Assembly (NCBI RefSeq): GCF_001677335.1
Contig: NZ_LZYB01000004.1
Coordinates: forward strand, 1 to 64,000
DNA length: 64,000 nucleotides
Direction of reading: 5' to 3'
Source of the DNA: Erythrobacter dokdonensis DSW-74
Lineage (GTDB): Bacteria > Pseudomonadota > Alphaproteobacteria > Sphingomonadales > Sphingomonadaceae
Within the stretch, counting starts at the first letter, position 1. Every line of letters starts with the position of its first letter. Under the pieces are notes generated by a model. It was given only the letters and a program-made list of their open reading frames with translations, was not told the origin of the DNA and made no database searches. Both the position numbers and the translations under genes were made by a program. Of this stretch, positions 19,788 through 35,132 are shown piece by piece.

Positions 19788-19874
<87 letters not shown>

Positions 19875-20018
19875 AAACAGCCCCGGAAAGTCTATAAAAC
19901 CCTTGGAAATCCTAGGGATTTGTGCCTTCGGTCGTCCGAGAATGTCCCTATTCTTCCCGCTGCATCCGGGGCCCTTGGGGGCCACATCGCGGGGCCAAGG
20001 CATTTCGGGCAATTGGAC

Positions 20019-20062: not shown

Positions 20063-21292
20063 ATGCCGCTGACAGATGTTGCGATCCGGAACGCCAAGCC
20101 GCGAGAGAAACCCTATAAGGTGGGCGACACGCTCGGCCTGTTCCTGCTGGTGCAGCCTTCGGGCGGCAAGCTGTGGCGGGTCAAATATCGCATCGACGGC
20201 AAGGAGAAGAAGCTGGCGATCGGGATCTATCCTCAGGTTGGTCTCGCGGAGGCGCGGCGTAGGCGTGATGCCGCCCGCGAGTTAGTGGCAGCAGGCAAGG
20301 ATCCGGGCCGCGAGAAGCAGCGCGAGAAGGTGCGGTCGCGCATCCAGGCCGAGACAACCTTCGACGCTATTGCCGCCGAGTTCTGCCAGAAGCGGCGGCG
20401 CGATGGTCAAAAGGCCTAGGCGGTGAGCACGGCCACTCGCAGCGAGTATCTGCTGTCGCTGCTCAAGGGATCGATCGGCAAACTGCCTATCACCGATATC
20501 GAACCTGCCGATGTGCTTATTGCCGTCCGCAAGATCGAGCGCAAGGGCCAGCTGGAAAGCGCCCGCCGCACCCTGCAACTGGCTGGCGCGGTGTTCCGCT
20601 ACGCGGTGGCAACCGCCCGTCTCTCGTCGGACCCCACGCGCGACCTGCGCGGCGCGCTGACCGCGCCCACCGTCACCCACTACGGCGCGATCATCGACCC
20701 CGCGCGCGTGGGCGAACTGCTGCGCGCCATCGACGGCTATGAGGGCCAACCAATCACCATGCTGGCGATGCAACTGGCCCCGCATGTGTTCGTCCGCCCC
20801 GGAGAGCTACGCCACGCCGAATGGAGCGAGTTCGATTTCGAAGGTGCCTTGTGGACCATCCCGGCGGCCAAAACCAAGATGCGCAAGGATCACCTCGTTC
20901 CACTCTCACGCCAGTCGATTGCGATCCTCGAAGACCTCCGCACGCTGACCGGACCTGAGGGCTACGTCTTCCCTTCGATCCGCTCCCGCAAGCGCCCAAT
21001 GAGCGACAATACGATCAACGCAGGGCTTCGCCGCCTCGGCTACTCCACCGACGAGATGACCGCCCACGGCTTTCGGGCCGTGGCCTCGACCCTGCTGAAC
21101 GAAAGCGGCAAGTGGCACCCAGACGTGATAGAGCGGGCATTGGCTCACGGCGACAGCGACAGGATCCGTGCCGCGTACCACCGGGGCGCACACTGGAAGG
21201 AGCGCGTGGCCATGGCGCAATGGTGGAGCGACCACCTCGATCAGCTGCGCAAGGGCGCAGACGTAGTGCCGATCAAGGCGGAGAAGCGGTGA
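20063..21292 (+). pseudogene. P4-type tyrosine recombinase (integrase), interrupted by in-frame TAG
   Basis: MPLTDVAIRNAKPREKPYKVGD begins a DUF4102-type N-terminal domain of P4-family integrases. Codon 119 (20417-20419) is TAG, and the same frame then continues without a shift through the core-binding and catalytic domains to 21292 (410 codons in all). Related integrases usually have tryptophan here, so TGG to TAG is the simple explanation. Downstream catalytic residues look intact: Arg in VRPGELRHAEW, HGFR, LAHG and the Tyr in RAAYHRG. A GTG at 20423 could restart translation, giving a 289-residue protein without the N-terminal domain, so a split but partly active enzyme is not excluded. 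Integration is directed at the adjacent tRNA-Gly. Confidence 0.88.
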
Positions 21293-21462
21293 TTAGTCTT
21301 GAGAAACCGCCACTCGTGTATGATCCGCAATCGCCCGAAGAATTGCGATGGTATTTCAGAAATTTAACGCTGAGTAGTTTGCTCGCAACTCGCCGCAAAC
21401 CCGCACAACTCGTGGGCGGGTCATTTGTGCACAAACCGTGTTTCCTTCAATACATCAATTAG
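21289..21462 (+). CDS. Possible small protein after the integrase
   Basis: A 57-codon frame beginning at a GTG that overlaps the integrase stop (GTGA). The product has no signal peptide and no recognised motif; it contains YDPQSPEELRWYFRNLTLSSLL. The overlap is the only support. It may be chance. Confidence 0.3.
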   Translation: MISLEKPPLVYDPQSPEELRWYFRNLTLSSLLATRRKPAQLVGGSFVHKPCFLQYIN

Positions 21463-21875
21463 ATGCGACCCGAATTCGCGGGGTAGGGTGTGCTCACTGT
21501 TCCCCAACTGCGTGGTGCCGGTTCAATGCCTCTGACGCTTTCAGCTCCGGGCTCCATCAAAATGCTACAGAGCGGAGCCACCGGCAGAAAGAAGCTTCGC
21601 TGTGATCTCGTCCTGGGGGTTGTGAACACACAACCTAAAGCGTTCCATCCCGTCATCGCGACCCGGGGATCTCGGAGCCGGCCTGAAATGCCAACAGCCA
21701 ACCATGATCGCTTAGGCCTTCGATGCGATCTGTGCGCTGGCATTGGCAGCTAATGCCAGTTTTTTGGCAGGAATTGCAGATGGTATCCCATCTGGCGACC
21801 GAGTAGTTTTCCTTAGCATTTGCGAAGATAGGTCCGGCATCGTCCACCGGACCTTCGCCGACCGGGAGACACGAG
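21463..21875. other. Intergenic region between integrase and pilus-associated genes
   Basis: 413 bp without a supported gene. It holds a perfect 7-bp hairpin CAGATGG-TATC-CCATCTG (21777-21794) and a shorter TGCCA...TGGCA repeat at about 21754-21769. The promoter of the 21876 gene and perhaps of the pilus operon should lie here. Confidence 0.5.
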
Positions 21876-22589
21876 ATGAACAAGTTCGCTGCGATTATAG
21901 CGTGTGTGATAGCCTTGGCAGCCGCGCCAGTTGCGGCCCAGCGGGTCGAACAGGTTCACTTCGCCCGCGGCGCGAGCGGAACCACGATCGATGCTTCGAT
22001 CGTCGGGGAAGAGTATATCGATTATCATCTGACGCTGGCGGCCGGGCAGATGCTTTCGGTTTCGCTGCAGGATCGCGGCGGGTCGGCCTATTTCAACGTG
22101 ATCGAGCCCGGCGCGGGGAATGTGGCGATCTACAACAGCTCGACGAGCGGTCAGACGTTCGAGGCGCGCACCCGCATGGCCGGAACATACACCATCCGAG
22201 TCTATCAGATGCGCGCGAGCGGGCGACGCGGCGAAAGGGCGAGCTACCGGCTGAACATCTCTGCCACCGGCAGCGGCGCCTCGCACAGTTCCGACGTGCT
22301 GGTTTCGGGCACGCCCTATCACGCGACCGCGATGATCCGCTGCGTCGCCGAACCCAGCAAGCCTATGAGCAGTTGCCGCGCGGGCGTAACACGGCGCGGG
22401 TCTAGCGCGACAGTCCATGTGGATACGCCCGATGGCGGAGAGCGCACCATCCTGTTCCGCGGGAACAAGGCGGTTTCGAGCGATTCGGACGCCGGTATCT
22501 ATGTGGAAAGGCGGGGCGACACTTCGGTTGTAAAAATCGGCACCGTCGAGGTTTACGAGATCCCGGATGCCTTCGTGCAGGGAGGGTAA
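21876..22589 (+). CDS. Secreted protein with pre-peptidase-like beta domain
   Basis: A 237-residue exported protein (signal MNKFAAIIACVIALAAAPVAAQ). Residues ~25-130 (VHFARGASGTTIDASI...YIDYHLTLAAGQMLSVSL...AYFNVIEPG...YTIRVYQMR) read like a PPC-type beta sandwich. Residues ~145-237 form a second domain with two cysteines (MIRCVAEPSKPMSSCRAG) and PDGGERTILFRG. The second domain is shared with the lipoprotein at 31168-31671 in the same island. A GGGAGA ribosome site precedes the ATG. It is the first gene upstream of the pilin cluster and may be linked to it; function unknown. Confidence 0.75.
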   Translation: MNKFAAIIACVIALAAAPVAAQRVEQVHFARGASGTTIDASIVGEEYIDYHLTLAAGQMLSVSLQDRGGSAYFNVIEPGAGNVAIYNSSTSGQTFEARTRMAGTYTIRVYQMRASGRRGERASYRLNISATGSGASHSSDVLVSGTPYHATAMIRCVAEPSKPMSSCRAGVTRRGSSATVHVDTPDGGERTILFRGNKAVSSDSDAGIYVERRGDTSVVKIGTVEVYEIPDAFVQGG

Positions 22590-22653
22590 TGCCGGTGTCT
22601 GACCCCTTCGCGAACATGGCGGAACCATTGTGCACCCAGATCGCAGATTGACG

Positions 22654-23202
22654 ATGCGAAACTTCAAGCTGCTCATGGCACTTGCGGCCTGTGCGGTTGC
22701 CGCCCCGGCCATCGCGTCAACCCAGGGCACGCCCGGGCCGACTTCGACCGGGACGGTCACGATCAACGCCTCGATCACGCCCGAAGTGAACATCTCCAAT
22801 CTGGACGACTTCACCTTCACCGCGACCCAGCTCGCGACTGCAGTCAATACCGGCCGTCCCGCCGGGCTTACCGACGACATCTGCCTGTGGACGAACAATG
22901 TCGACAACACCCTGTTCGTCACTGCCACGGGCGACGGCGCCGGGGGCGCCTTTACCCTTACCGATGGAAGCCGCACGCTGCCCTATTCCGTGACGCTGCG
23001 CGTGATTGCCAGTCAATTTCAATTGACCCCGGGAACCAAGACCCGTCCTATCGTCATTTCCAATGCGGGCGTTGACTGTTCCGCCTTCCGCAATGGAACC
23101 AACGCCAGCCTCGCCATCATCCTCCAGCGCGACGACATCGCCGCGATGGAAGCAACCACCACCTACACCGGCGTGCTGACCCTGCTGGTTTCGCCGACCT
23201 GA
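22654..23202 (+). CDS. Pilin subunit 1 (chaperone-usher type, spore-coat-U-like)
   Basis: A 182-residue exported protein: signal peptide MRNFKLLMALAACAVAAPAIAS, then an N-terminal extension (TQGTPGPTSTGTVTINASIT) of a type that could be the donor strand, then a beta-rich domain with two cysteines (DDICLW, VDCSAF) and the terminal strand YTGVLTLLVSPT. It is paralogous to the next two genes. The ATG at 22654 gives the best signal peptide. With usher and chaperone downstream it should be an assembled pilus subunit. Assignment to the SCPU family rests on overall pattern only. Confidence 0.8.
   Translation: MRNFKLLMALAACAVAAPAIASTQGTPGPTSTGTVTINASITPEVNISNLDDFTFTATQLATAVNTGRPAGLTDDICLWTNNVDNTLFVTATGDGAGGAFTLTDGSRTLPYSVTLRVIASQFQLTPGTKTRPIVISNAGVDCSAFRNGTNASLAIILQRDDIAAMEATTTYTGVLTLLVSPT
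23134..23202 (+). repeat. Near-identical 3' segment of pilin 1
   Basis: This 69-bp segment differs from 23702-23770 at a single base (GTT versus GTC), far closer than the rest of the genes. Confidence 0.9.
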
Positions 23203-23227
23203 CAATTCCAGCCCCAGAGGACACACC

Positions 23228-23770
23228 ATGAAGATGAAGCTTCTCGCCGCCGCCACTGCAGTCGCAGGGCTTTCCGCTCCCGCCTTCGCTGCCACGCAGG
23301 GCACGCCCGGGCCGACTTCGACGGGCACGGTGACGATCAATGCCACGATCACGCCCGAAGTGGCGATTTCGGATCTCGACGATCTCACATTCACCGCCAC
23401 CCAGCTGCAAACGGCGCTTAACACCGGCGCAAATGCCCAGCAGGCTGACGATGTCTGCGTGTGGAGCAACAATGTCGATGGAAGCTACTATCTCACAGCG
23501 ACCGGCGATGGTGCCGGGAACGCATTTACGCTGACTGATGGCACGCGAACACTGGCCTACTCCCTGGGCTGGCGGTTCGGAGGTGGAGCGGTCCAGTCGC
23601 TGACATCCGGGACCAAGTCCCCGCGTTTGACTACCACTGCGACTGCGCCCGATTGCGGCGGGTCAACAACGGCTAGCCTGCTGGTAATCCTGCGGAACGC
23701 AGACATCGCCGCGATGGAAGCAACCACCACCTACACCGGCGTGCTGACCCTGCTGGTCTCGCCGACCTGA
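23228..23770 (+). CDS. Pilin subunit 2 (chaperone-usher type)
   Basis: A 180-residue paralogue of the flanking pilins. Signal peptide MKMKLLAAATAVAGLSAPAFA, N-terminal extension TQGTPGPTSTGTVTINATIT, conserved VAISDLDDLTFTATQL, cysteines in DDVCVW and PDCGGS, and the same terminal strand YTGVLTLLVSPT. The ribosome site AGAGGA precedes the ATG; it begins 25 bp after pilin 1. Its middle (LGWRFGGGAVQSLTSGTKSPR) is the most divergent part, which in pili is often surface-exposed. Confidence 0.82.
   Translation: MKMKLLAAATAVAGLSAPAFAATQGTPGPTSTGTVTINATITPEVAISDLDDLTFTATQLQTALNTGANAQQADDVCVWSNNVDGSYYLTATGDGAGNAFTLTDGTRTLAYSLGWRFGGGAVQSLTSGTKSPRLTTTATAPDCGGSTTASLLVILRNADIAAMEATTTYTGVLTLLVSPT
23702..23770 (+). 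repeat. Near-identical 3' segment of pilin 2
   Basis: A copy of 23134-23202 with one base difference; the third pilin (24270-24338) carries a more diverged version. Confidence 0.9.
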
Positions 23771-23795
23771 GCTTTCCGACTCAAGGAGACACGAC

Positions 23796-24338
23796 ATGAA
23801 GACGAAGATTCTTGCGACTGCCGCCGCGCTGGTCTGCCTTTCGGCCCCCGCCTTCGCCGCAACGCAAGGCACGCCCGGACCGACCTCGACCGGGACGGTC
23901 ACGATCAACGCCAGCATCACGCCGGAAGTGAACATAACCAATCTCGATGACATCACCTTCGCTGCTACAAGCCTGCGGACCGCGCTCAACACCGGGGCCA
24001 ATGCCAACCAGTCCGACGACATCTGCATCTGGTCGAACAATCCCGACGGCAGCTTTTTCGTCACGGCTACCGGCGATGGCGCCGCCAATGCCTTCACGAT
24101 AACCGATGGGACCCGCACAACGCCCTATTCGATCGTGATCCGGGATTTCGCCGGGACATCGCAGACGCTGACCGCAGGGACAAAGTCCGCGCAATATCGC
24201 AGCAACGCGGTCGCACCCGATTGCGGCGGCTCCACCAACACGACCCTTACGGTCCAGATCACCTCCACCGCGATCGCAGCGATGGAGGCTACCACCACCT
24301 ATACCGGCGTGCTCACCCTGCTGGTCTCGCCGACCTGA
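23796..24338 (+). CDS. Pilin subunit 3 (chaperone-usher type)
   Basis: A 180-residue third paralogue: signal peptide MKTKILATAAALVCLSAPAFA, extension TQGTPGPTSTGTVTINASIT, VNITNLDDITFAATSL, cysteines in DDICIW and PDCGGS, terminal strand YTGVLTLLVSPT. The leader CAAGGAGACACGAC repeats the type seen before pilin 2. Spacing of 25 bp between the genes implies one transcript. Three related major-type subunits could be co-polymerised or used alternatively; the sequence does not say which. Confidence 0.82.
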   Translation: MKTKILATAAALVCLSAPAFAATQGTPGPTSTGTVTINASITPEVNITNLDDITFAATSLRTALNTGANANQSDDICIWSNNPDGSFFVTATGDGAANAFTITDGTRTTPYSIVIRDFAGTSQTLTAGTKSAQYRSNAVAPDCGGSTNTTLTVQITSTAIAAMEATTTYTGVLTLLVSPT

Positions 24339-24363
24339 TCAGGGCATCAGCGGTCGCCAGATA

Positions 24364-24864
24364 ATGAGCAGGAGAGCGCCCGCTCTGACCGGTGCGGTGC
24401 TGTTCGCGACAGGGTTTGCCCTGACGTTGGCTGCCCCGCCGCTCGCCGCGCAGAGCGTGAACATCTCGGGCCTGTCGGACGTGTCCTTCGGCGCGTTGCG
24501 GCCCGTCAATGACGCGCGCCGTGCGCAGTCGCTATGCGTGTTCAGCGATCTGCCGGGGCGCGGCTATCTGGTCACCGCCACCGGCTCGGGGGCGGGCGGC
24601 GCCTTCGTGCTCGACGGCGGCGGCGGGGCCGACCTGCCCTTCGCGATCGAATGGGCCGACCAGCCGAGCGTCGATCAGGGAATGCCGCTCAATCCCGGCC
24701 AGCCGCTCGGCGGGCAGACCAGCACGGCAACCGATGCCACCTGCGGTTCCGGGCCGACCCGCACAGCCAGCCTTGTCGTGGTGATCGCGCGTGCCGATCT
24801 CGCCGCCGCCCGTTCGGCGACCAATTACAGCGGCACGCTGACCCTCGTCATCGCGCCGCAATAG
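24364..24864 (+). CDS. Fourth pilus subunit lacking the N-terminal extension
   Basis: A 166-residue exported protein. After the signal peptide (...LTLAAPPLAAQ) the mature chain starts directly at SVNISGLSDVSFGAL, which aligns with VNIS.LDD.TF of the three pilins; the ~22-residue extension present in those is missing. Two cysteines (QSLCVF, ATCGSG) and the final strand YSGTLTLVIAPQ are kept. A subunit without a donor extension can only accept a strand, so it would cap the fibre tip; this is inference from the donor-strand mechanism. It lies directly before the usher gene. Confidence 0.75.
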   Translation: MSRRAPALTGAVLFATGFALTLAAPPLAAQSVNISGLSDVSFGALRPVNDARRAQSLCVFSDLPGRGYLVTATGSGAGGAFVLDGGGGADLPFAIEWADQPSVDQGMPLNPGQPLGGQTSTATDATCGSGPTRTASLVVVIARADLAAARSATNYSGTLTLVIAPQ

Positions 24865-24872
24865 GGAGAGGC

Positions 24873-27416
24873 ATGAAACACCTGCGCCCCTGGCTTTGCG
24901 GTTGCTGTTCGCTTGTCATCGCAGCTCCGGTGCTGGCGCAATCGCAAGATCCGGCGCTGCTCGCTTCCGAGGTCGAGCGCGAGACCGCGCCGAACGCCCC
25001 CGGCGCACAGGTCCGGTCGGCGGCGGCCTTCACCATCTCCACCCCGCCCGGCTTCGAGGATCTGGTCGATCCAGCACCGGTGGTGGTCGACATTTATTTT
25101 GGCGGGCGTCTGATCGGCACCACCTCGGGCATCCAGGAGCCCGGATACTTCACCTTCGACGAGCCCGATAAGGTGATCGCGCTAATCGACGGGGTCACGG
25201 ACCCGCAGGCTGTTGCAGCGGCGCTCACGGGCAGGCTCGACAGCAACGCAGGCCTTGCCTGCCGCGACGATCCGCGCCCCGGCTGCGGCGTGCTGTCGCC
25301 GCCGGTTGCGGCGATCATCCACGATCCCGGAAGCTTCCGGCTCGAAATCTTCATCGCCCCCGCGTTTCTCGCTGCGGTCGAAGTGCAGACCAGAGAATAC
25401 CTGCCGATTCCCGATGCCGGCCTTTCTCTGATCAGCACATTCGCCGGTTCGGTTTCGGGCGTTGAGGGCCGCGCGGCAAACTATGCGCTCCAGAACCGCT
25501 CGATCCTCGCATGGCGCAACGCAAGGCTCGTTGCGGATGTGGGCCAGTCGGACAATTTCGGCTTCCAGAGCCAGATCCTCGCCGCCGAGCTCGATACCGG
25601 CGCGCTGCGCTATCGCGGCGGGCTGATGTTCTCCGAACCGCTCGCCTTTACCGGGCAGGCGCGGATCTACGGGGCTAGCGTCGGCACGCAGTATGACACC
25701 CGCGCCGATGCGGAAGGTGCCTTCACCCAGCCGATTGCCCTGTTCCTGCCGCGCCGCTCGCAGATCAACGCCTATCGCGACGGGCAGCTGCTGGCCTCGA
25801 TGCAGCTCGATGCCGGCAACCAGCTGGTCGATACCTCGGTGTTTCCGGCAGGCGCCTACAACATCACGCTCGAGATCATCGACGACACCGGGGCCACCCG
25901 CACCGAGACACGCTTCTTCACCAAGGACCGCAGCCTGCCGCCGGTCGGCCGCACCGCCTTCTCCGCCACGGCTGGCACCCTGGCGATGGACATGGGCAGC
26001 GGGCTGCCGGAATTCGGCGATGACCTGTTTATGCAGGGCACAGTCGGTCACCGTCTGTCGCCCAATGTCTCGCTCGAGGGCGGCGCGCTGCTGGTGGGGC
26101 AGGACTTTGTCGCCGAAGCCGGTGCGAGCTATCTGGCCGATGGTTTCAACGGGCGGTTGGTGGGGCTGGCGGGCAATAATGGCAATTACGGGTTGATTGC
26201 CAATGTCTCGTGGTTCGATCTTGCCAATGTCTCGGCCAATGCTTTCTTCCGGCGCACCTGGGGGCCGGGCTTCGGCGGCCTTGGCAACCGCGACCGCTTC
26301 GGTCTCACGCCAATTAACGACATCAACCTGCTGGTCGGCGACAGCACGCAGGCAGGCGGCAATATCGGGATGCGGCTGGGGCGCGCCAACCTGCGGTTCG
26401 ATGGTCTCTATTTCAAATCACCCCGTTCAGAGGCCTTCTACGCATTTGGGCCCAGCTTCGATTATGCCACCCGCCCGGCGCGCAATCTCCAGTTGACATT
26501 ATTCGGCGACGGACGCCGCAGCAGCGACGGCTGGGATGTTCGGGTGGGCATCCGTATTAACTTCCTGCGCGACAATTTCGTGGTGCTGGGCGAAAGCGCC
26601 GGCGCATGGCGGCGGCGAGGCGGGGTCGAGGACAGCGGCCCCATCGGCAACCTGCTGGCAACCTATTCGAGCCCCGGCGTGCTGCGCGGCGACTTGTCGG
26701 TGGCGGCGGGCTATGCGCGCGATCTCGACAGCGAAAGGGTGCGCGCTGAGGCCAACCTTGACAGCCAGTATGGCCGATTCCTCGGACAGGTCGAACATGT
26801 CTTCGACACGCCCGGCGGGGGCGGCACGCGCTATGCCGCCAACGCGATCACCAGCCTTGCGATCGGCGGGAACGATGCCACGCTCGGCGGACGCGACATC
26901 GGCGAAAGCGGGATCGTCGTCGCCCTCAAGGGAAGCGGGGACGATGTCGAGATGGACGTGCTGGTCGACGATGTGCCGCGGGCCCGGATCCGTCCGGGCC
27001 AGAGCATCCCGGTGTTCCTCCCGCCCTACCGCGCCTATGCGGTGCGGCTTGCGCCGGTGCGTGGGCGGGGCGGCAGATTCGACGCAAATGCGCGCGAAGT
27101 CTCACTCTACCGCGGCAACATGCAATATCTCGAATGGGAGGTGCGCGCGGTCCAGGCGGTATTCGGGCGCGTGGTCGACATGGAGGGCAAGCCGCTGCCG
27201 GGCGCGGCACTGTTCGGCGAACGCGACTTCATGCAGACCGACGGTTCAGGCTATTTCCAGGGCGAGATCGCTGGCGAGGAAACCTACGTCATGCGAAAGG
27301 CCGGCGCGGAAGTGTGCCGCATCACCCTTGCGCCATCGGACAGCAGCCGGCCCCTGCTTGACCTTGGGGACGTGGTATGCACCACAGTAGCGACAAAATC
27401 CGGGGACGATTCATGA
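24873..27416 (+). CDS. Outer membrane usher of the pilus
   Basis: An 847-residue protein. Signal peptide (MKHLRPWLCGCCSLVIAAPVLAQ), N-terminal periplasmic domain binding chaperone-subunit complexes (FEDLVDPAPVVVDIYFGGRLIGT), a long beta barrel from about 190 to 690 with an inserted plug-like segment (RRSQINAYRDGQLLASMQLDAG...LVDTSVFPAGAYNITLEI), and C-terminal Ig-like/carboxypeptidase-regulatory-type domains (VFGRVVDMEGKPLPGA.LFGERDFMQTDGSGYFQGEI). The length matches ushers. Features resemble the CS1/TcfC-type as much as the archaic Csu-type, so the clade is left open. The start at 24873 follows GGGAGAGGC; the longer frame runs into the preceding gene. Confidence 0.85.
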   Translation: MKHLRPWLCGCCSLVIAAPVLAQSQDPALLASEVERETAPNAPGAQVRSAAAFTISTPPGFEDLVDPAPVVVDIYFGGRLIGTTSGIQEPGYFTFDEPDKVIALIDGVTDPQAVAAALTGRLDSNAGLACRDDPRPGCGVLSPPVAAIIHDPGSFRLEIFIAPAFLAAVEVQTREYLPIPDAGLSLISTFAGSVSGVEGRAANYALQNRSILAWRNARLVADVGQSDNFGFQSQILAAELDTGALRYRGGLMFSEPLAFTGQARIYGASVGTQYDTRADAEGAFTQPIALFLPRRSQINAYRDGQLLASMQLDAGNQLVDTSVFPAGAYNITLEIIDDTGATRTETRFFTKDRSLPPVGRTAFSATAGTLAMDMGSGLPEFGDDLFMQGTVGHRLSPNVSLEGGALLVGQDFVAEAGASYLADGFNGRLVGLAGNNGNYGLIANVSWFDLANVSANAFFRRTWGPGFGGLGNRDRFGLTPINDINLLVGDSTQAGGNIGMRLGRANLRFDGLYFKSPRSEAFYAFGPSFDYATRPARNLQLTLFGDGRRSSDGWDVRVGIRINFLRDNFVVLGESAGAWRRRGGVEDSGPIGNLLATYSSPGVLRGDLSVAAGYARDLDSERVRAEANLDSQYGRFLGQVEHVFDTPGGGGTRYAANAITSLAIGGNDATLGGRDIGESGIVVALKGSGDDVEMDVLVDDVPRARIRPGQSIPVFLPPYRAYAVRLAPVRGRGGRFDANAREVSLYRGNMQYLEWEVRAVQAVFGRVVDMEGKPLPGAALFGERDFMQTDGSGYFQGEIAGEETYVMRKAGAEVCRITLAPSDSSRPLLDLGDVVCTTVATKSGDDS

Positions 27417-28108
27417 GTTTCTTTTGCCGCATCATGGCAACCGCAATCGTTGCGATGGCTGGCACTGTGCCCGCTCTGGCTCAAATCGCGGTGCACCCGG
27501 TTATCATCGACCTTCCGCCCGAGGATCTGCAGCGCGCCGATTTCACCGTCGAAAACCCGACGAGTGAGCGTGTTTTTGTGGCCGTCGAACCCGCCCGGAT
27601 CGACGCGCCGGGCAGCGAAGGCGAAACACGGGTGGCGCTCAGTGATCCGCAGCAGCTCGGCCTGCTCGCATCGCCGCCACGGATGATCCTCGAACCCGGC
27701 GAGCGCCGCTTCGTGCGGCTTGCTGCCCTGACCCCGCCGGGTGATGCTGACAGGGTGTTCCGCGTTGCCGTCAAGCCAGTAGCGGGGGATGTAACCGGCG
27801 AAGAGAGCGGGCTGAAGATTCTGGTCGGCTATGATCTGCTGGTGATCCAGCGCCCGGCTAATCCGACGCTGACCATAGACTGGGAAAACAGCGCCGAGCA
27901 GGTGATTGTCCGCAACAACGGCAACAGCAACGCCCAGCTGATCAACGGCCGTTCCTGCAAGCCCGGTCAGCCGGAAGAGAGCTGCACCAAGGTGCCTTCC
28001 TCCCGGCTCTATGCCGGAAACGCGATCACCGTGACCAAGGGCGCCGAAGAGGTTGTCACCTTCGACGTGCTCTTCATGGGGCGAAGCAGCCGCATAGTGA
28101 TGGAATGA
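27413..28108 (+). CDS. Periplasmic pilus chaperone
   Basis: A 231-residue protein: signal peptide MSFFCRIMATAIVAMAGTVPALAQ, then two Ig-like domains (IAVHPVIIDLPPEDLQRADFTVENPT...; SPPRMILEPGERRFVRLAAL...DRVFRVAVKPV, the G1-type edge and conserved YR/FRV strand of pilus chaperones). The C-terminal domain has a cysteine pair (RSCKPGQPEESC). The ATG at 27413 overlaps the usher stop (ATGA), so translation is coupled; a start at 27377 would spoil the signal peptide. It caps subunits in the periplasm and delivers them to the usher. Confidence 0.85.
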   Translation: MSFFCRIMATAIVAMAGTVPALAQIAVHPVIIDLPPEDLQRADFTVENPTSERVFVAVEPARIDAPGSEGETRVALSDPQQLGLLASPPRMILEPGERRFVRLAALTPPGDADRVFRVAVKPVAGDVTGEESGLKILVGYDLLVIQRPANPTLTIDWENSAEQVIVRNNGNSNAQLINGRSCKPGQPEESCTKVPSSRLYAGNAITVTKGAEEVVTFDVLFMGRSSRIVME

Positions 28109-28207
28109 CCCGCGGCCGCTGCGGCCCGTCGCGCTCCGGATCGCCGGTTGGCACGCCCGCGACGGTCGCCTAGGTTGCATTCTGTCGCAGGCAGCGAGGC
28201 AGAGATC

Positions 28208-29563
28208 ATGGAAGCGGACCACGACCAGCCAAGCTTGGGCATGGTGCTCGCCGAATCATCGGGCCTGCGGCTGTTCACCCTCGTCCTGTTCTACTTCAAT
28301 CAGGGGATCGCTCCGGGCATCTTCCTGTTCGCGATTCCCGCTTGGCTTGCAAGCCATGATGTCCCGACGGCGGGAATTGCAGTGGTCGTGTCGGCGGCGG
28401 GTCTGCCGTGGACACTCAAGTTCCTGCTCGGGTTCCTGATCGATCGCTACCCCTACCTGCCGATGGGCCGCCGCAGGGCGTGGATCATCGCGGCGCAGGG
28501 GACGCTGGTCGCCGTGATGATCGCTGGAGCACTCGCTAACCCGCAACCTGCCGAAATCGTGCTCCTCGCCGGCCTCGCCTTTCTCGCCAATATCGCCGTG
28601 AACTTCCAGGATGTCGGGATCGACGCGCTGGCGATCGACCTCATGGCCGAGGAAGAGCGAACCGGCGCTGCCGCGATGATGGTGGGGGCACAGGTGATCG
28701 GTCTTTCAATCAGCGTGGCGACGTTCGGCTGGGCGCTGGAGCACGCCGGCACTCCGGCCGCGATGCTGGCCGCCGCAGCCGTGCCGCTGGTCACGATGAT
28801 CTATGGCTGTGTGCTGGTCGAGCGGCGCGGGGAACGCCGTCTGCCGTGGAGCAAAGGCACGGCCCATCCCGGCAACCGCGCGATTCAAGTGGCGGCGTGG
28901 CGTCCCCTTTTGCGTGAGACTTTTCGTGCCCTCAGAGGGCCGTTTTCCCTCGCTTTCGTGCCTTTGCTTCTGGTGCGCAGCCTTCCTTCCGGGGTGCACG
29001 AGACCTATCTGCCCGCGCTGTTCGCCCGCGCGGCGGGCTGGACTTTGTCGGACTATACCAGCCTGATGGCCATGCTGACGACGGCTAGCGGTGCCTATTG
29101 TATCCTTGCTGGCGGCCGGATTGTCTCTCTTTTCGGAGAACGCCGGGTACTTGCGGGATGTGCGGCAATCCTTGCCGTTTGGGCCAGCCTCTTTGCAGCC
29201 CTGCCATCGTTGTGGAACCAGACTTCCATCCTTATCGGCTATGCAGTCGTCGCGGAATTTCTGATCATGACATTCACAATCGCGTTGGTGCCAGTGGCCA
29301 TGCGGCTGTGCGTCCCGGGTGCGGCTGCCAGCCAGTTCGTGGTCTACATGGGACTGAGCGGGGTCGGTCGTCCGTTCGGGGCGCTGCTGGCGGGCGCCGC
29401 GAGCGGGATGGGCGTTCCGGAGGTGATGTTCTGGGTGATGAGCGCCTGCCTCGCGGCGGCAGGCTTTTATGCGGCAATCTTCAAGCTTGCGGTGGAGCGG
29501 GCCGCCCAGCCGGAGTATCGCGGCGCCCGGTTCGAAGCGCCCGGGAACAATGCGGTGCCTTGA
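28208..29563 (+). CDS. MFS transporter, AmpG/PAT-like
   Basis: A 451-residue protein with about 12 membrane helices. FYFNQGIAPGIFLFAIPAWLA, WTLKFLLGFLIDRYPYLPMGRRRAWI and ANIAVNFQDVGIDALAIDLM (an internal acidic motif) recall the PAT/AmpG branch of MFS carriers, whose members import muropeptides or acetyl-CoA. The substrate here is unknown. The start was set at 28208. It follows the chaperone by 99 bp on the same strand and may be on the same transcript. Confidence 0.75.
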   Translation: MEADHDQPSLGMVLAESSGLRLFTLVLFYFNQGIAPGIFLFAIPAWLASHDVPTAGIAVVVSAAGLPWTLKFLLGFLIDRYPYLPMGRRRAWIIAAQGTLVAVMIAGALANPQPAEIVLLAGLAFLANIAVNFQDVGIDALAIDLMAEEERTGAAAMMVGAQVIGLSISVATFGWALEHAGTPAAMLAAAAVPLVTMIYGCVLVERRGERRLPWSKGTAHPGNRAIQVAAWRPLLRETFRALRGPFSLAFVPLLLVRSLPSGVHETYLPALFARAAGWTLSDYTSLMAMLTTASGAYCILAGGRIVSLFGERRVLAGCAAILAVWASLFAALPSLWNQTSILIGYAVVAEFLIMTFTIALVPVAMRLCVPGAAASQFVVYMGLSGVGRPFGALLAGAASGMGVPEVMFWVMSACLAAAGFYAAIFKLAVERAAQPEYRGARFEAPGNNAVP

Positions 29564-31167: not shown

Positions 31168-31671
31168 TCAGCCGCCGGTGATCATCGCATCGACGACGAC
31201 ATAGGTCTCAGGGCCAAAGGTGATGGTGGTCTGGTCTCCGTTGCGGGTCCATTTCAGGTCCCATTCTGCCGAACCATCTGCCTGGACGCTGTCGGCGCCA
31301 TAGGGCTCGGTGCCGCGGAAGAAGATCGCGCGTTTCATGCCGTCGGGTTTGGTCACTTCGACCAGATGTTCCCCCGGCGCATCGCCCCAGTTACGCTTGA
31401 TCCCGGCATCGCATTTCTGCGTGGGCGGGGCACCGTCGAAGCCGCAGGAGATGATGGTCGTGGCGTTGTAATCTGTGCCGGGCACCAGCTCGTCCTCGCC
31501 GTCAGTTGCGGCATCGGGCGGCGGTGGCGGGCCATTGGTTTCGGCTGCCGCCATCGCTTCGGTATCGCCCGCAGCTGCACTGTCGGTGGTGTCGTCCCCC
31601 CTGCCGCCGCAAGCCGCGAGGCTTGCCGCCAGCAGCGCGGCCCAAAGCAGACGCGTGTTCATCATCGTCAT
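31168..31671 (-). CDS. Lipoprotein with a domain shared within the island
   Basis: A 167-residue lipoprotein: lipobox ASLAAC (Cys 21), a low-complexity acidic/Pro linker to about residue 60, then a C-terminal domain YNATTIISCGFDGAPPTQKC with KPDGMKRAIFFRG and VVVDAMITGG. This domain aligns with the C-terminal half of the secreted protein at 21876-22589 (MIRCVAEPSKPMSSC, PDGGERTILFRG, DAFVQGG). Function unknown. Confidence 0.7.
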   Translation of the reverse strand: MTMMNTRLLWAALLAASLAACGGRGDDTTDSAAAGDTEAMAAAETNGPPPPPDAATDGEDELVPGTDYNATTIISCGFDGAPPTQKCDAGIKRNWGDAPGEHLVEVTKPDGMKRAIFFRGTEPYGADSVQADGSAEWDLKWTRNGDQTTITFGPETYVVVDAMITGG

Positions 31672-33222: not shown

Positions 33223-33450
33223 TGACTTCTCCCAATCTGGCGGCGCGATCCCGCCTACGTGTCCCGGCGTTCGTCACGACGTTTCAAAAGCCGTTCCGCA
33301 CACGCCCTGTTCCGGTCCAACGAACTGGAACGGTTGCAAGACTACCCTATGCAGACTGGCAGATATATCGGCACCTTCAGCCAAAAACTTGACATTTCCT
33401 GCCGCTGTAGGCCTACTCATCACAGGATCGGGCGACGTAGGGAGCGTGCC

Positions 33451-34542
33451 ATGTACGTGATTTCGCCAGTCGGCTTTGATGAATTCCTAGACCGATTGAT
33501 GCGGAACGATCCGGAGTTTGCCTCTTCGAAAGTCCCTACAGGCGTCACCGCCTTCTGGTGTGAAAGCCTTGGCAGGCCCGGCTGGATGTTTGCAGGGACA
33601 GATCTTGATCCGGGCAGTCCGCTCCCGCGCGAGATCAGCCAGATCAACGACCTGCAGATCATGTCCAATTTGCTGCAAATGCACGGGGAGGCGCGGCTGG
33701 CAGCAATGATGCTGGAGTGGTCTAACTATCCTGCCCAAAGCCAGATTCTCGCCGCGCCGGATCTCGGGGCGGCCCTGCAATTCGTGGTAACTGCCAGCAA
33801 TCGCAAGAACCCGGCCATGGCTGCTCGAATTATCCGATCGCAGGGCATGGCGGTTTTCCGGTTCGACATGGATCCTCGGTTCGGCCCTTTCTGCGGCATC
33901 CACGAACAGCTCCTGCTGATCTGGATCTTCCTCATCATCCGCTCGTTTCTTGGTGTCAGCGCCCAAGGCATCGGCCAGCTCCCCCGCATCGTCATATCGC
34001 GCCTGCATTCAAACGATGCGATCGATGCGCTACTGCCTTGCGAGGTAGTATATGACAGCGAAGCGGCTTCCGTCGGTGTGCCGGAGGAACTTATGGACTT
34101 CCCCGGGCTCACATTCGATCCGGAGCTATGGGCGAGCATCTTGGCCTCTCTGGAGAAGGCTGGAGGTGGGAAGCGCCGCCCATCCTCGAGAAGGCCCGAT
34201 GAAATCGAGCATCTTGTCCGCAATGTCCTCGCGAAAGAGGCAAGAGTCCCACCCTTCGCCGAGATCGCCGCCGAACTGGGCCTTTCGGAACGCACCCTTG
34301 CTCGCAATTTTGCGGCCTGCGGACAGACCTATCGCGCGCTCATCGACAAGTTGCGCATGGCGATGGCGCAGGAAATGTTGCTGCAAGACGGGCTAAAGGT
34401 GAAGGATCTCGGCCACCAGCTCGGCTACAGTGACCCCTCTGCCTTTGTGCGGTCCTTCCGGCGCTATTCGGGTGTGTCACCGGCACGGTGGCGCAAGATG
34501 AAAAAGCGTGAAGGTTCACCGCATGGCGGCTCGACACGCTAG
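33451..34542 (+). CDS. AraC-family transcriptional regulator
   Basis: A 363-residue regulator. The N-terminal ~220 residues resemble the arabinose-binding-like domain of the OruR/ArgR-type AraC group (HSNDAIDALLPCEVVYDSEAASVGVPEELMDFP). The C-terminal ~100 residues form the paired helix-turn-helix: FAEIAAELGLSERTLARNFAACGQTYRALIDKLRMAMAQ and VKDLGHQLGYSDPSAFVRSFRRYSGVSPARWR. The ATG at 33451 follows GGGAGCG. It is the only regulator in the island and so the likely controller of the pilus or lipoprotein genes, which is inference. Confidence 0.88.
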   Translation: MYVISPVGFDEFLDRLMRNDPEFASSKVPTGVTAFWCESLGRPGWMFAGTDLDPGSPLPREISQINDLQIMSNLLQMHGEARLAAMMLEWSNYPAQSQILAAPDLGAALQFVVTASNRKNPAMAARIIRSQGMAVFRFDMDPRFGPFCGIHEQLLLIWIFLIIRSFLGVSAQGIGQLPRIVISRLHSNDAIDALLPCEVVYDSEAASVGVPEELMDFPGLTFDPELWASILASLEKAGGGKRRPSSRRPDEIEHLVRNVLAKEARVPPFAEIAAELGLSERTLARNFAACGQTYRALIDKLRMAMAQEMLLQDGLKVKDLGHQLGYSDPSAFVRSFRRYSGVSPARWRKMKKREGSPHGGSTR

Positions 34543-35076
34543 GCTGAACCGCGCACCTGAGTGCGCGACTTTGTCGGCAATCTCAGGGACATCCGTGCCT
34601 CATCAGTTTGTGTACGTTCAAAAAGGGCGGGATTAGTTCCCGAGGAGAGTTCGATGCGCTGCGGAACCGCTTCGGATACGGGCCGGACTGCACCGTTGGG
34701 CTGGGCCGCAATCAGTACTGGTACTGGATCCCGCCCTTAGCGCTTTAAATTGGGGCACACCCTACGCGACGGGTCGCAGTTATATCGCTCTGATTTAAAA
34801 ACTGAAAACTGCAAAAATGGATGCGGAAGCTTCTCAATTAAATCCGATTTGCCAATCGGATCCGATAAACTGGACGCTATATCGCTGAAAAAACGTCACA
34901 ACTCCATCGAGGTTGGCTATCCGAATCTGATTGACGACTCCCAACTTCGAATCCGAACCGGACTGTCCCAAGTTTTCCACATGCATCCAGCAAATTTGGG
35001 GTGTCGGTTGGGGGCCATAGAAATTTAATGTTCAGAAATAGACTTTCAATATCAATTCATTAAGCCAACTTTTGGC
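34543..35076. other. AT-richer non-coding right end of the island
   Basis: 534 bp without a credible gene. At about 34648-34746 a short frame reads EFDALRNRFGYGPDCTVGLGRN then QYWYWIPPL and a stop, and may be the tail of a lost gene. From about 34745 the base composition is clearly more AT-rich than the chromosome. A perfect inverted repeat ATCCGATT-TGCC-AATCGGAT lies at 34842-34861. Confidence 0.5.
34842..34861. repeat. Perfect 8-bp inverted repeat near the island right end
   Basis: ATCCGATT, loop TGCC, AATCGGAT, about 215 bp inside attR. It could be an arm-type recombinase or accessory-protein site; no U-run, so not an obvious terminator. Confidence 0.5.
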
Positions 35077-35107
35077 TTCCCGCTACCCGCTCCAGCCCTC
35101 CCTTCCC
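35077..35107 (+). repeat. Attachment site attR
   Basis: A perfect 31-bp copy of the tRNA-Gly 3' end plus flank (19844-19874), 25 bp before the stop of the chromosomal MFS gene. It marks the right island boundary. Confidence 0.93.
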
Positions 35108-35132
35108 GAAACGTTCCGGACGACCCGCCGCC

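Follow-up and report, generated by a model that had tools for sequence, protein, structure and literature searches.

A chaperone-usher pilus operon, very probably of the alternative type and with a short candidate tip subunit, in a tRNA-Gly island of Erythrobacter dokdonensis DSW-74

In the first 64,000 nucleotides of contig NZ_LZYB01000004.1 of Erythrobacter dokdonensis DSW-74 (the window), six intact genes on the plus strand, positions 22654-28108, encode three tandem pilins, a fourth subunit, an outer-membrane usher and a periplasmic chaperone. The operon very probably encodes an alternative (alpha) pathway chaperone-usher pilus of an alphaproteobacterial lineage, with the short fourth subunit as the tip. 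This assignment was made because the usher carries TcfC and CooC_C domains and the chaperone is of the CfaA type. An earlier reading made without database searches (the sequence-only reading) had described a complete chaperone-usher gene set, and its six genes, their order, the short spacings (25, 25, 25 and 8 bp in gene order) and the 4-base ATGA overlap of usher and chaperone (27413-27416) were all confirmed; it had found the clade not obvious, whereas the type could be assigned from the usher domains and the chaperone. The features of the operon are as follows.

22654-23202, plus strand: pilin 1, proposed rod subunit with N-terminal extension (open reading frame, alignment); an alternative GTG start at 22630 would extend it
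23137-23202, plus strand: last 66 nt of pilin 1, homogenised 3' end (98% against the reference copy 23705-23770)
23228-23770, plus strand: pilin 2, proposed rod subunit (open reading frame, alignment)
23796-24338, plus strand: pilin 3, proposed rod subunit (open reading frame, alignment, AlphaFold model)
23859-23921, plus strand: N-terminal extension of pilin 3, proposed donor strand, near-identical in the three pilins and absent from the fourth subunit
24364-24864, plus strand: fourth subunit, single pilin domain without donor strand, proposed tip or initiator (model, profiles, motif counts)
24873-27416, plus strand: outer-membrane usher of 847 aa, alternative (alpha) type (Pfam domains, usher scores)
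25728-25925, plus strand: TcfC E-set domain of the usher (PF16967, Pfam match)
27105-27383, plus strand: CooC_C C-terminal domain of the usher (PF15976, residues 745-837)
27413-28108, plus strand: periplasmic chaperone, CfaA-like (chaperone profile, alignment)

The window usher matched PF16967 at 1.3e-20 and PF15976 at 1.2e-13, and both domains were found in all 17 aligned ushers. At E up to 1 the window usher had no match to PF00577 (usher family), which two Csu-like ushers did match, one below the family cut-off. The profile scores of the window usher were 223-452 bits against the 38 Sphingomonadales rows of its tree group, 120-199 bits against alphaproteobacteria with chaperone-usher-pilin order and a few others, 57-77 bits against CS1-type rows, 66 bits against EcpC and 34 bits against the best Csu-type row. 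When the usher alignment was compared with solved structures, no chain was matched at 0.001.

For the chaperone, a profile of 18 rows had matches (E up to 0.1) to three different sequences of solved structure: two are named CfaA (4.3e-19 and 7.1e-19), and the third, 4ncd (1.1e-20), is labelled only 'pili assembly chaperone' with printed letters nearly the same as those of CfaA. The window chaperone alone fell below the PapD_N cut-off. Arg117 of the window chaperone aligns with Arg89 of EcpB (EcpB residue numbers are our own count) and is invariant in 18/18 relatives, as are Cys182 and Cys191, nine residues apart, which resemble the EcpB pair. In the available part of a published comparison, a residue of the EcpB Arg89 type is said to mark archaic and alternative (non-classical) chaperones more than any other feature, and EcpB is described as carrying such a cysteine pair (PMC4654587). 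Judged by these residues and matches, the chaperone is predicted to be CfaA-like and non-classical, with the carboxylate-anchoring Arg of the alternative pathway in place.

The phylogeny proposed with the sequence-only reading separated the CS1-type rows from the window. In an 81-row usher tree, which excludes eight repeat rows, nine rows taken to be redundant with no identity test applied, and split ushers shorter than 600 aa, the window grouped with 'Candidatus Odyssella' and 38 Sphingomonadales rows at 93, and a wider alphaproteobacterial group of 47 rows, window included, was found at 99. The nine CS1-type rows formed their own group at 100, the ECP-type and Csu-type rows also formed groups of their own, and locus L024 fell outside the 47-row group on a long branch. 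In a 42-row tree, five CS1-type rows stood apart at 100 with the window not among them, and the Csu-type rows were again separate. A tree of usher plus chaperone (27 rows) divided four CS1-type rows from 23 alphaproteobacterial rows including the window, at 100.

Peptidoglycan-binding SPOR domains (PF05036) were observed in the C-terminal tails, of about 430-540 aa, of three alternative-type ushers, namely L093 (6581-10378, 4.9e-8), L094 (6558-10418, 3e-8) and L167 (10166-14119, 9.2e-17, with two SPOR stretches), and no description of this architecture was found in the literature search. Ushers of 1194-1317 aa had been considered as usher-chaperone fusions; this was rejected, as three carry SPOR and the tail of L098 has no Pfam match. 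A SPOR domain on some ushers could hold pilus assembly at the peptidoglycan of dividing cells.

The pilin 1 and pilin 2 precursors are 61% and 70% identical to that of pilin 3, and the three share a near-identical N-terminus after the signal peptide (TQGTPGPTSTGTVTINA...) and a near-identical C-terminus, while their middles diverge. The window subunits reached no Pfam or NCBIfam cut-off. PF04449 and PF16449 (MatB) found no match among the 18 pilins searched (E up to 1, with HMMER filters that drop most weak matches), whereas all three control CS1-type pilins matched PF04449 at 2.2e-23 or better and control EcpA matched PF16449 at 1.7e-98. The archaic family SCPU (PF05229) was weakly matched by one of the 18 (0.12). 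In profile comparisons the pilins showed a weak full-length likeness to CS1 pilins (128 columns, probability 89) and matched putative SCPU pilins along 41 columns that surround the signal peptide and extension (probability 93); against solved structures, the pilin alignment gave one chance-like match (0.15).

Synonymous differences over the last 22 pilin codons were 0.05, 0.28 and 0.33 per site, with one synonymous-site difference between pilins 1 and 2, while those in the middles were 0.57-0.78 per site in two larger segments and 0.43-0.65 in a third of 11 codons. The low values at the ends relative to the middles suggest recent gene conversion of the ends around a diverged middle. A third copy of the 3'-end repeat (24273-24338) is 92% identical to the reference copy. 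The tandem pilins (22654-24338) are possibly a mosaic diversification system.

The fourth subunit, with an assumed mature length of 138 aa, lacks the N-terminus shared by the pilins. Aligned with each other, the pilin and tip profiles first correspond at residue 22 of the mature pilin, the same domain boundary as in the structure models described below. By gene position, the donor-strand motif, which is our own definition, was found in 0/33 scored usher-adjacent genes and in 41/48 other subunits; 15 of 48 usher-adjacent genes and three others went unscored as the strand pattern was not found, and of the seven other subunits without the motif, four show a variant and three look wrongly anchored. 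By profile class the counts were 0/35 tips and 57/62 pilins, which is partly circular since the profiles themselves contain or lack the extension. Searches of 28 tips with PF04449, PF07434 and PF16449 gave no match at E up to 0.1; the single control CS1-type tip matched PF07434 at 3.1e-93. By the established biology of donor strands, a subunit with a groove that lacks a donor strand of its own can enter the fibre at the start and at no other point. As the fourth subunit consists of a pilin domain lacking the N-terminal donor strand, we infer that it should be the tip of the fibre.

AlphaFold2 models, built from the window proteins and their relatives, reached a pLDDT of 94.7 for pilin 3 (assumed mature part, 23859-24335) and 94.3 for the fourth subunit. 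Among the structural matches listed by VIA-align and Foldseek, which leave room for unlisted folds, the pilin 3 model matched the CfaE pilin domain (Z 10.8, 3.0 A, 125 residues), CS17 (Z 10.0), CooA (9.6) and a Csu pilin (9.6), and the fourth-subunit model matched CfaE (10.5), CupE (10.1) and CS17 (9.9) after its top match, given below; the fold favours no type, because the Z scores tie within 1. Residue 1 of the fourth-subunit model superposes on CS17 residue 12, so the subunit begins at the start of the domain, and pilin residue 20 lies on CS17 residue 11. Both subunits are thus predicted to have the chaperone-usher pilin fold, with the extension present in the pilins.

The usher query alone matched one other genome (150 genomes, own included), and a contig scan with the single usher gave 87 pattern matches, none of which was confirmed. 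Across 297 genomes of the order, 17 (the window's own among them) contain PF16967 above its cut-off. Apart from the own genome, 15 of the remaining 16 show the order pilin, short subunit, usher, chaperone, and G350 (locus L024) has chaperone, pilin, short subunit, usher. Strong usher matches (E <1e-80) were found in the own genome and 13 others among 387 genomes of the class. Genus g40, to which Sphingomicrobium lutaoense belongs, has usher matches with E <1e-150 in 20 of 54 genomes (one match in pieces), and strong matches were present in three of 94 genomes of the window's genus, namely its own, G075 and G1174. The G1174 locus has the gene order of the window. Within the genus, the ushers are 25% and 28% identical to that of the window, which would fit separate acquisitions or old divergence.

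A scan with a 10-row pilin alignment gave 47 loci, mostly in Sphingomonas, Sphingomicrobium, Novosphingobium, Qipengyuania, Tsuneonella, Croceibacterium and relatives; these were selected by having a pilin, so that their pilin counts are not independent. After removal of repeats there were 52 Sphingomonadales stretches, 48 of them with an alternative-type usher; L040, L041, L042 and L164 were left out for having no such usher on the stretch, and nine loci, unnamed or on plasmids and repeating other loci, were dropped before the counts. The 48 loci are separate records, whose ushers fall into 43 clusters at 90%, 37 at 70% and 20 at 50% identity. The order pilin, short subunit, usher, chaperone was observed in 46 of the 48, in 42 directly, in three (L032, L143, L150) after resolving nested open reading frames in which a long frame has the pilin first and the short-subunit match towards its C-terminal end, and in one (L131) with an extra pilin; the exceptions are L024 and L168, where the pilin was not recognised. 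A short subunit was recognised upstream of the usher in all 48, and 43 have one further subunit gene beside it on the same strand, while three tandem pilins as in the window were found at none of these 48 loci. The order differs from Csu and from CS1, as the sequence-only reading had said; it is the usual order of the Sphingomonadales group and not a peculiarity of the window's island. With the same-order homologues and the usher E-values, the observation stands far above chance.

Outside Sphingomonadales, the alphaproteobacterial loci L093, L094, L166 and L169 have pilin, tip and usher with the chaperone elsewhere or not recognised, L095 has pilin-tip-usher-chaperone, and L100, L101, L103 and L105 have chaperone-usher-pilin; the annotated Pantoea control (L044) is chaperone-pilin-usher-tip. 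The window usher was not found in a tight group with any characterised clade of the same order. Its own group does share the order, and no description of this Sphingomonadales usher and pilus group was found in the open-licence literature, a scope that does not establish its absence from print.

In Sphingomonas daechungensis, one copy of the locus lies on a 128-kb replicon called a plasmid, where both subunits are annotated 'hypothetical protein', and another on the chromosome. The S. sediminicola usher and those of both the chromosomal and the plasmid S. daechungensis copies are broken into several frames (L131, L132, L160), which may reflect sequencing error or decay.

Several observations weigh against the alternative-type assignment or parts of it. 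It is improbable that the operon is an archaic (sigma, Csu-type) system with diverged SCPU pilins, even though 12 of 28 short subunits weakly match SCPU (best 6.1e-5), the tip profile aligns with putative Csu-type subunits over 34 columns (probability 90) and with CS1 pilins over 31 (probability 12), the top match of the fourth-subunit model is a Csu pilin (Z 10.7, tied with CfaE), and Csu-like loci exist in the same bacterial family (L041). The window subunits themselves gave no SCPU match, in a comparison where putative Csu-type subunits match in only 4/12. Against this reading stand the alternative-type domains and scores of the usher, the CfaA-type chaperone, the pilin profile, which aligns with CS1 pilins over 128 columns and with putative SCPU pilins over 41, and the separate grouping of Csu-type ushers; the subunits may be intermediate between the archaic and CS1 types. 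An ordinary CS1/CFA-type operon from gammaproteobacteria, rearranged, would share the usher and chaperone class. In the 42-row tree the alphaproteobacterial rows do not come together as a single group, and holding the window with the CS1-type rows was 1.68 log-likelihood units better with the usher only (p-AU 0.526, approximately unbiased test) and 1.16 worse with usher and chaperone (p-AU 0.45). Because this constraint was not rejected, any deep position or rooting of the usher group is provisional, and on these alignments the window usher appears to lie not inside the CS1-type clade, with a place beside it compatible with the tests. A CS1/CFA origin is nevertheless very improbable, given that CS1-type rows group at 100 without the window in all three trees, that the window pilins and tip lack the PF04449 and PF07434 matches shown strongly by the CS1 controls, and that this gene order and these subunit families recur in loci across the Sphingomonadales.

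The tip role has its own counterpoints, since the position of the fourth subunit in the fibre was only deduced, it has no adhesin domain, its cleavage site, like those of the pilins, was assumed and not predicted with a tool, and single-chain models say nothing on which strand fills which groove. It could instead be a terminator, a regulator or a periplasmic decoy, with the rod starting from a pilin. Known terminators such as PapH and FimI keep the donor strand and have lost acceptor features, the reverse of the pattern observed here, and with such a subunit upstream of the usher in all 48 Sphingomonadales loci this alternative is quite unlikely. That the operon is silent or decaying cargo is unlikely too: the integrase of the island is interrupted, ushers are split in the S. 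daechungensis and S. sediminicola copies (possibly by sequencing errors), and no sigma-70-like match was found on the plus strand of 21290-28300, in a type of scan that covers alphaproteobacterial promoters poorly, but the six reading frames are intact and the conserved residues are kept.

Under the alternative-type assignment, we infer the following route of export and assembly. The chaperone would take up each subunit in the periplasm and lend it a strand, and the fourth subunit, having a groove but no donor strand, would enter first and become the distal tip. The usher would then add pilins 1-3 by donor-strand exchange in any order to form a mixed-pilin rod; the three should be interchangeable because their N-terminal extensions are near-identical, and they differ in the middle of the domain, probably on exposed faces. 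Attachment to surfaces or in biofilms would fall to the short tip, to the faces of the pilins or to the two together, in the manner of polyadhesive fibres, and binding through the shaft or the short tip is likely because the operon encodes no separate adhesin domain. In the Saf and Afa/Dra systems, thin polyadhesive fibres are capped by a one-domain tip without donor strand, and their ushers and chaperones are of the classical type; the working principle alone is held in common with the window.

The operon resembles CFA/I and CS1 (class 5, CfaABCE/CooBACD) in its TcfC and CooC_C usher, CfaA-like chaperone and pilin fold, and the N-terminal extension of the window pilins aligns with the CS1 pilin N-terminus. 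It differs from them in lacking a PF04449 pilin and a two-domain CfaE/CblD tip (PF07434), in its order (pilin-tip-usher-chaperone against chaperone-pilin-usher-tip) and in its alphaproteobacterial hosts. These hosts are environmental bacteria, in contrast to enterotoxigenic E. coli. With the E. coli common pilus (ECP, EcpABCDE) it shares the non-classical chaperone Arg, a similar cysteine pair and few subunit kinds, but its pilin is not PF16449, it has one chaperone against two, its mature tip is about 138 aa against 547 aa for EcpD, and its usher is distant from EcpC, as scored above. With Csu (archaic/sigma) it has in common pilin models that match CsuA/B about as well as CS1 pilins, and tips that are weakly SCPU-like; its usher and chaperone are of another type, the chaperone is encoded last, and there is no two-domain tip like the CsuE described in the available part of PMC9452303.

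The alternative pathway is given as restricted to beta- and gamma-proteobacteria in the available parts of two sources (PMC4654587, PMC9452303), and that of a third merely lists pilus classes (PMC7697752). The present loci would extend this pathway to Alphaproteobacteria, and a one-domain tip without donor strand would let one study cleanly how a fibre of the alternative type is initiated when no adhesin domain is present. More tentatively, and with nearly balanced confidence, these loci may form a third, alphaproteobacterial branch of the alternative pathway beside the CfaA-like and EcpB-like ones, a stripped-down pilus with a sticky shaft and no lectin-like adhesin, in which some ushers gained SPOR and the window's three pilins are interchangeable mosaics.

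The operon lies in a tRNA-borne integrative island, with an integrase adjoining the tRNA and flanking repeats, of which the main features are as follows.

19788-19861, plus strand: tRNA-Gly (tcc), island insertion site
19839-19887, plus strand: left attachment repeat, in the end of tRNA-Gly
20063-21292, plus strand: tyrosine integrase gene with an in-frame TAG (20417-20419), read as two open reading frames
35072-35120, plus strand: right attachment repeat

The 49-bp direct repeat has an identity of 86% (97% over a 34-bp core) with its copies 15.2 kb apart, and the downstream piece of the integrase matches PF22022 and PF00589; NCBIfam PRK09692 was matched as well. The operon would have arrived with this island. 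The island setting in a sphingomonad, claimed in the sequence-only reading, held, while the mobility it had proposed is doubtful because the integrase is interrupted by the in-frame TAG, and the island may no longer move by itself. In one same-genus stretch (L211), which has no island sequence, 3.7 kb of other DNA lies between panC/tRNA-Gly and the right-hand MFS gene also present in the window; the other 11 of 12 same-genus stretches show no panC or tRNA-Gly.

Upstream of pilin 1, across a 64-bp gap, lies a gene for a secreted 237-aa protein (21876-22589) with no family over cut-off. It has a 76% identical paralogue in the own assembly (G000:C2:200611-201321), its C-terminal part resembles 31171-31512 on the minus strand, and of another 118 genomes of the family 20 contain matches. 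Open reading frames of at least 80 aa at other usher loci included no homologue at E up to 1e-3. With matches elsewhere in the family and none at usher loci, it was rejected for now as a pilus component.

Pilin-family members were also found in a gammaproteobacterial bin, MAG (metagenome-assembled genome) Kangiellaceae N1M-Bin_9 (L174, L175), by transfer or misbinning. Separate Csu-like loci with several subunits occur in the same bacterial family as the window (L041, L109 and L042, in G366, G155 and G031), and SCPU was matched by 4 of their 12 subunits. Genes for GGDEF-EAL, PilZ or response-regulator/histidine-kinase proteins were observed near the locus in 19 of 49 Sphingomonadales loci (e.g. 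L030, L133, L160, L169), in none of 12 control stretches, which are shorter and all of one locus, and not in the window; these neighbours weakly hint at control of the pilus loci by cyclic di-GMP. Near the right end of the island, an AraC-type regulator (33259-34542, PF12833) could control island genes.

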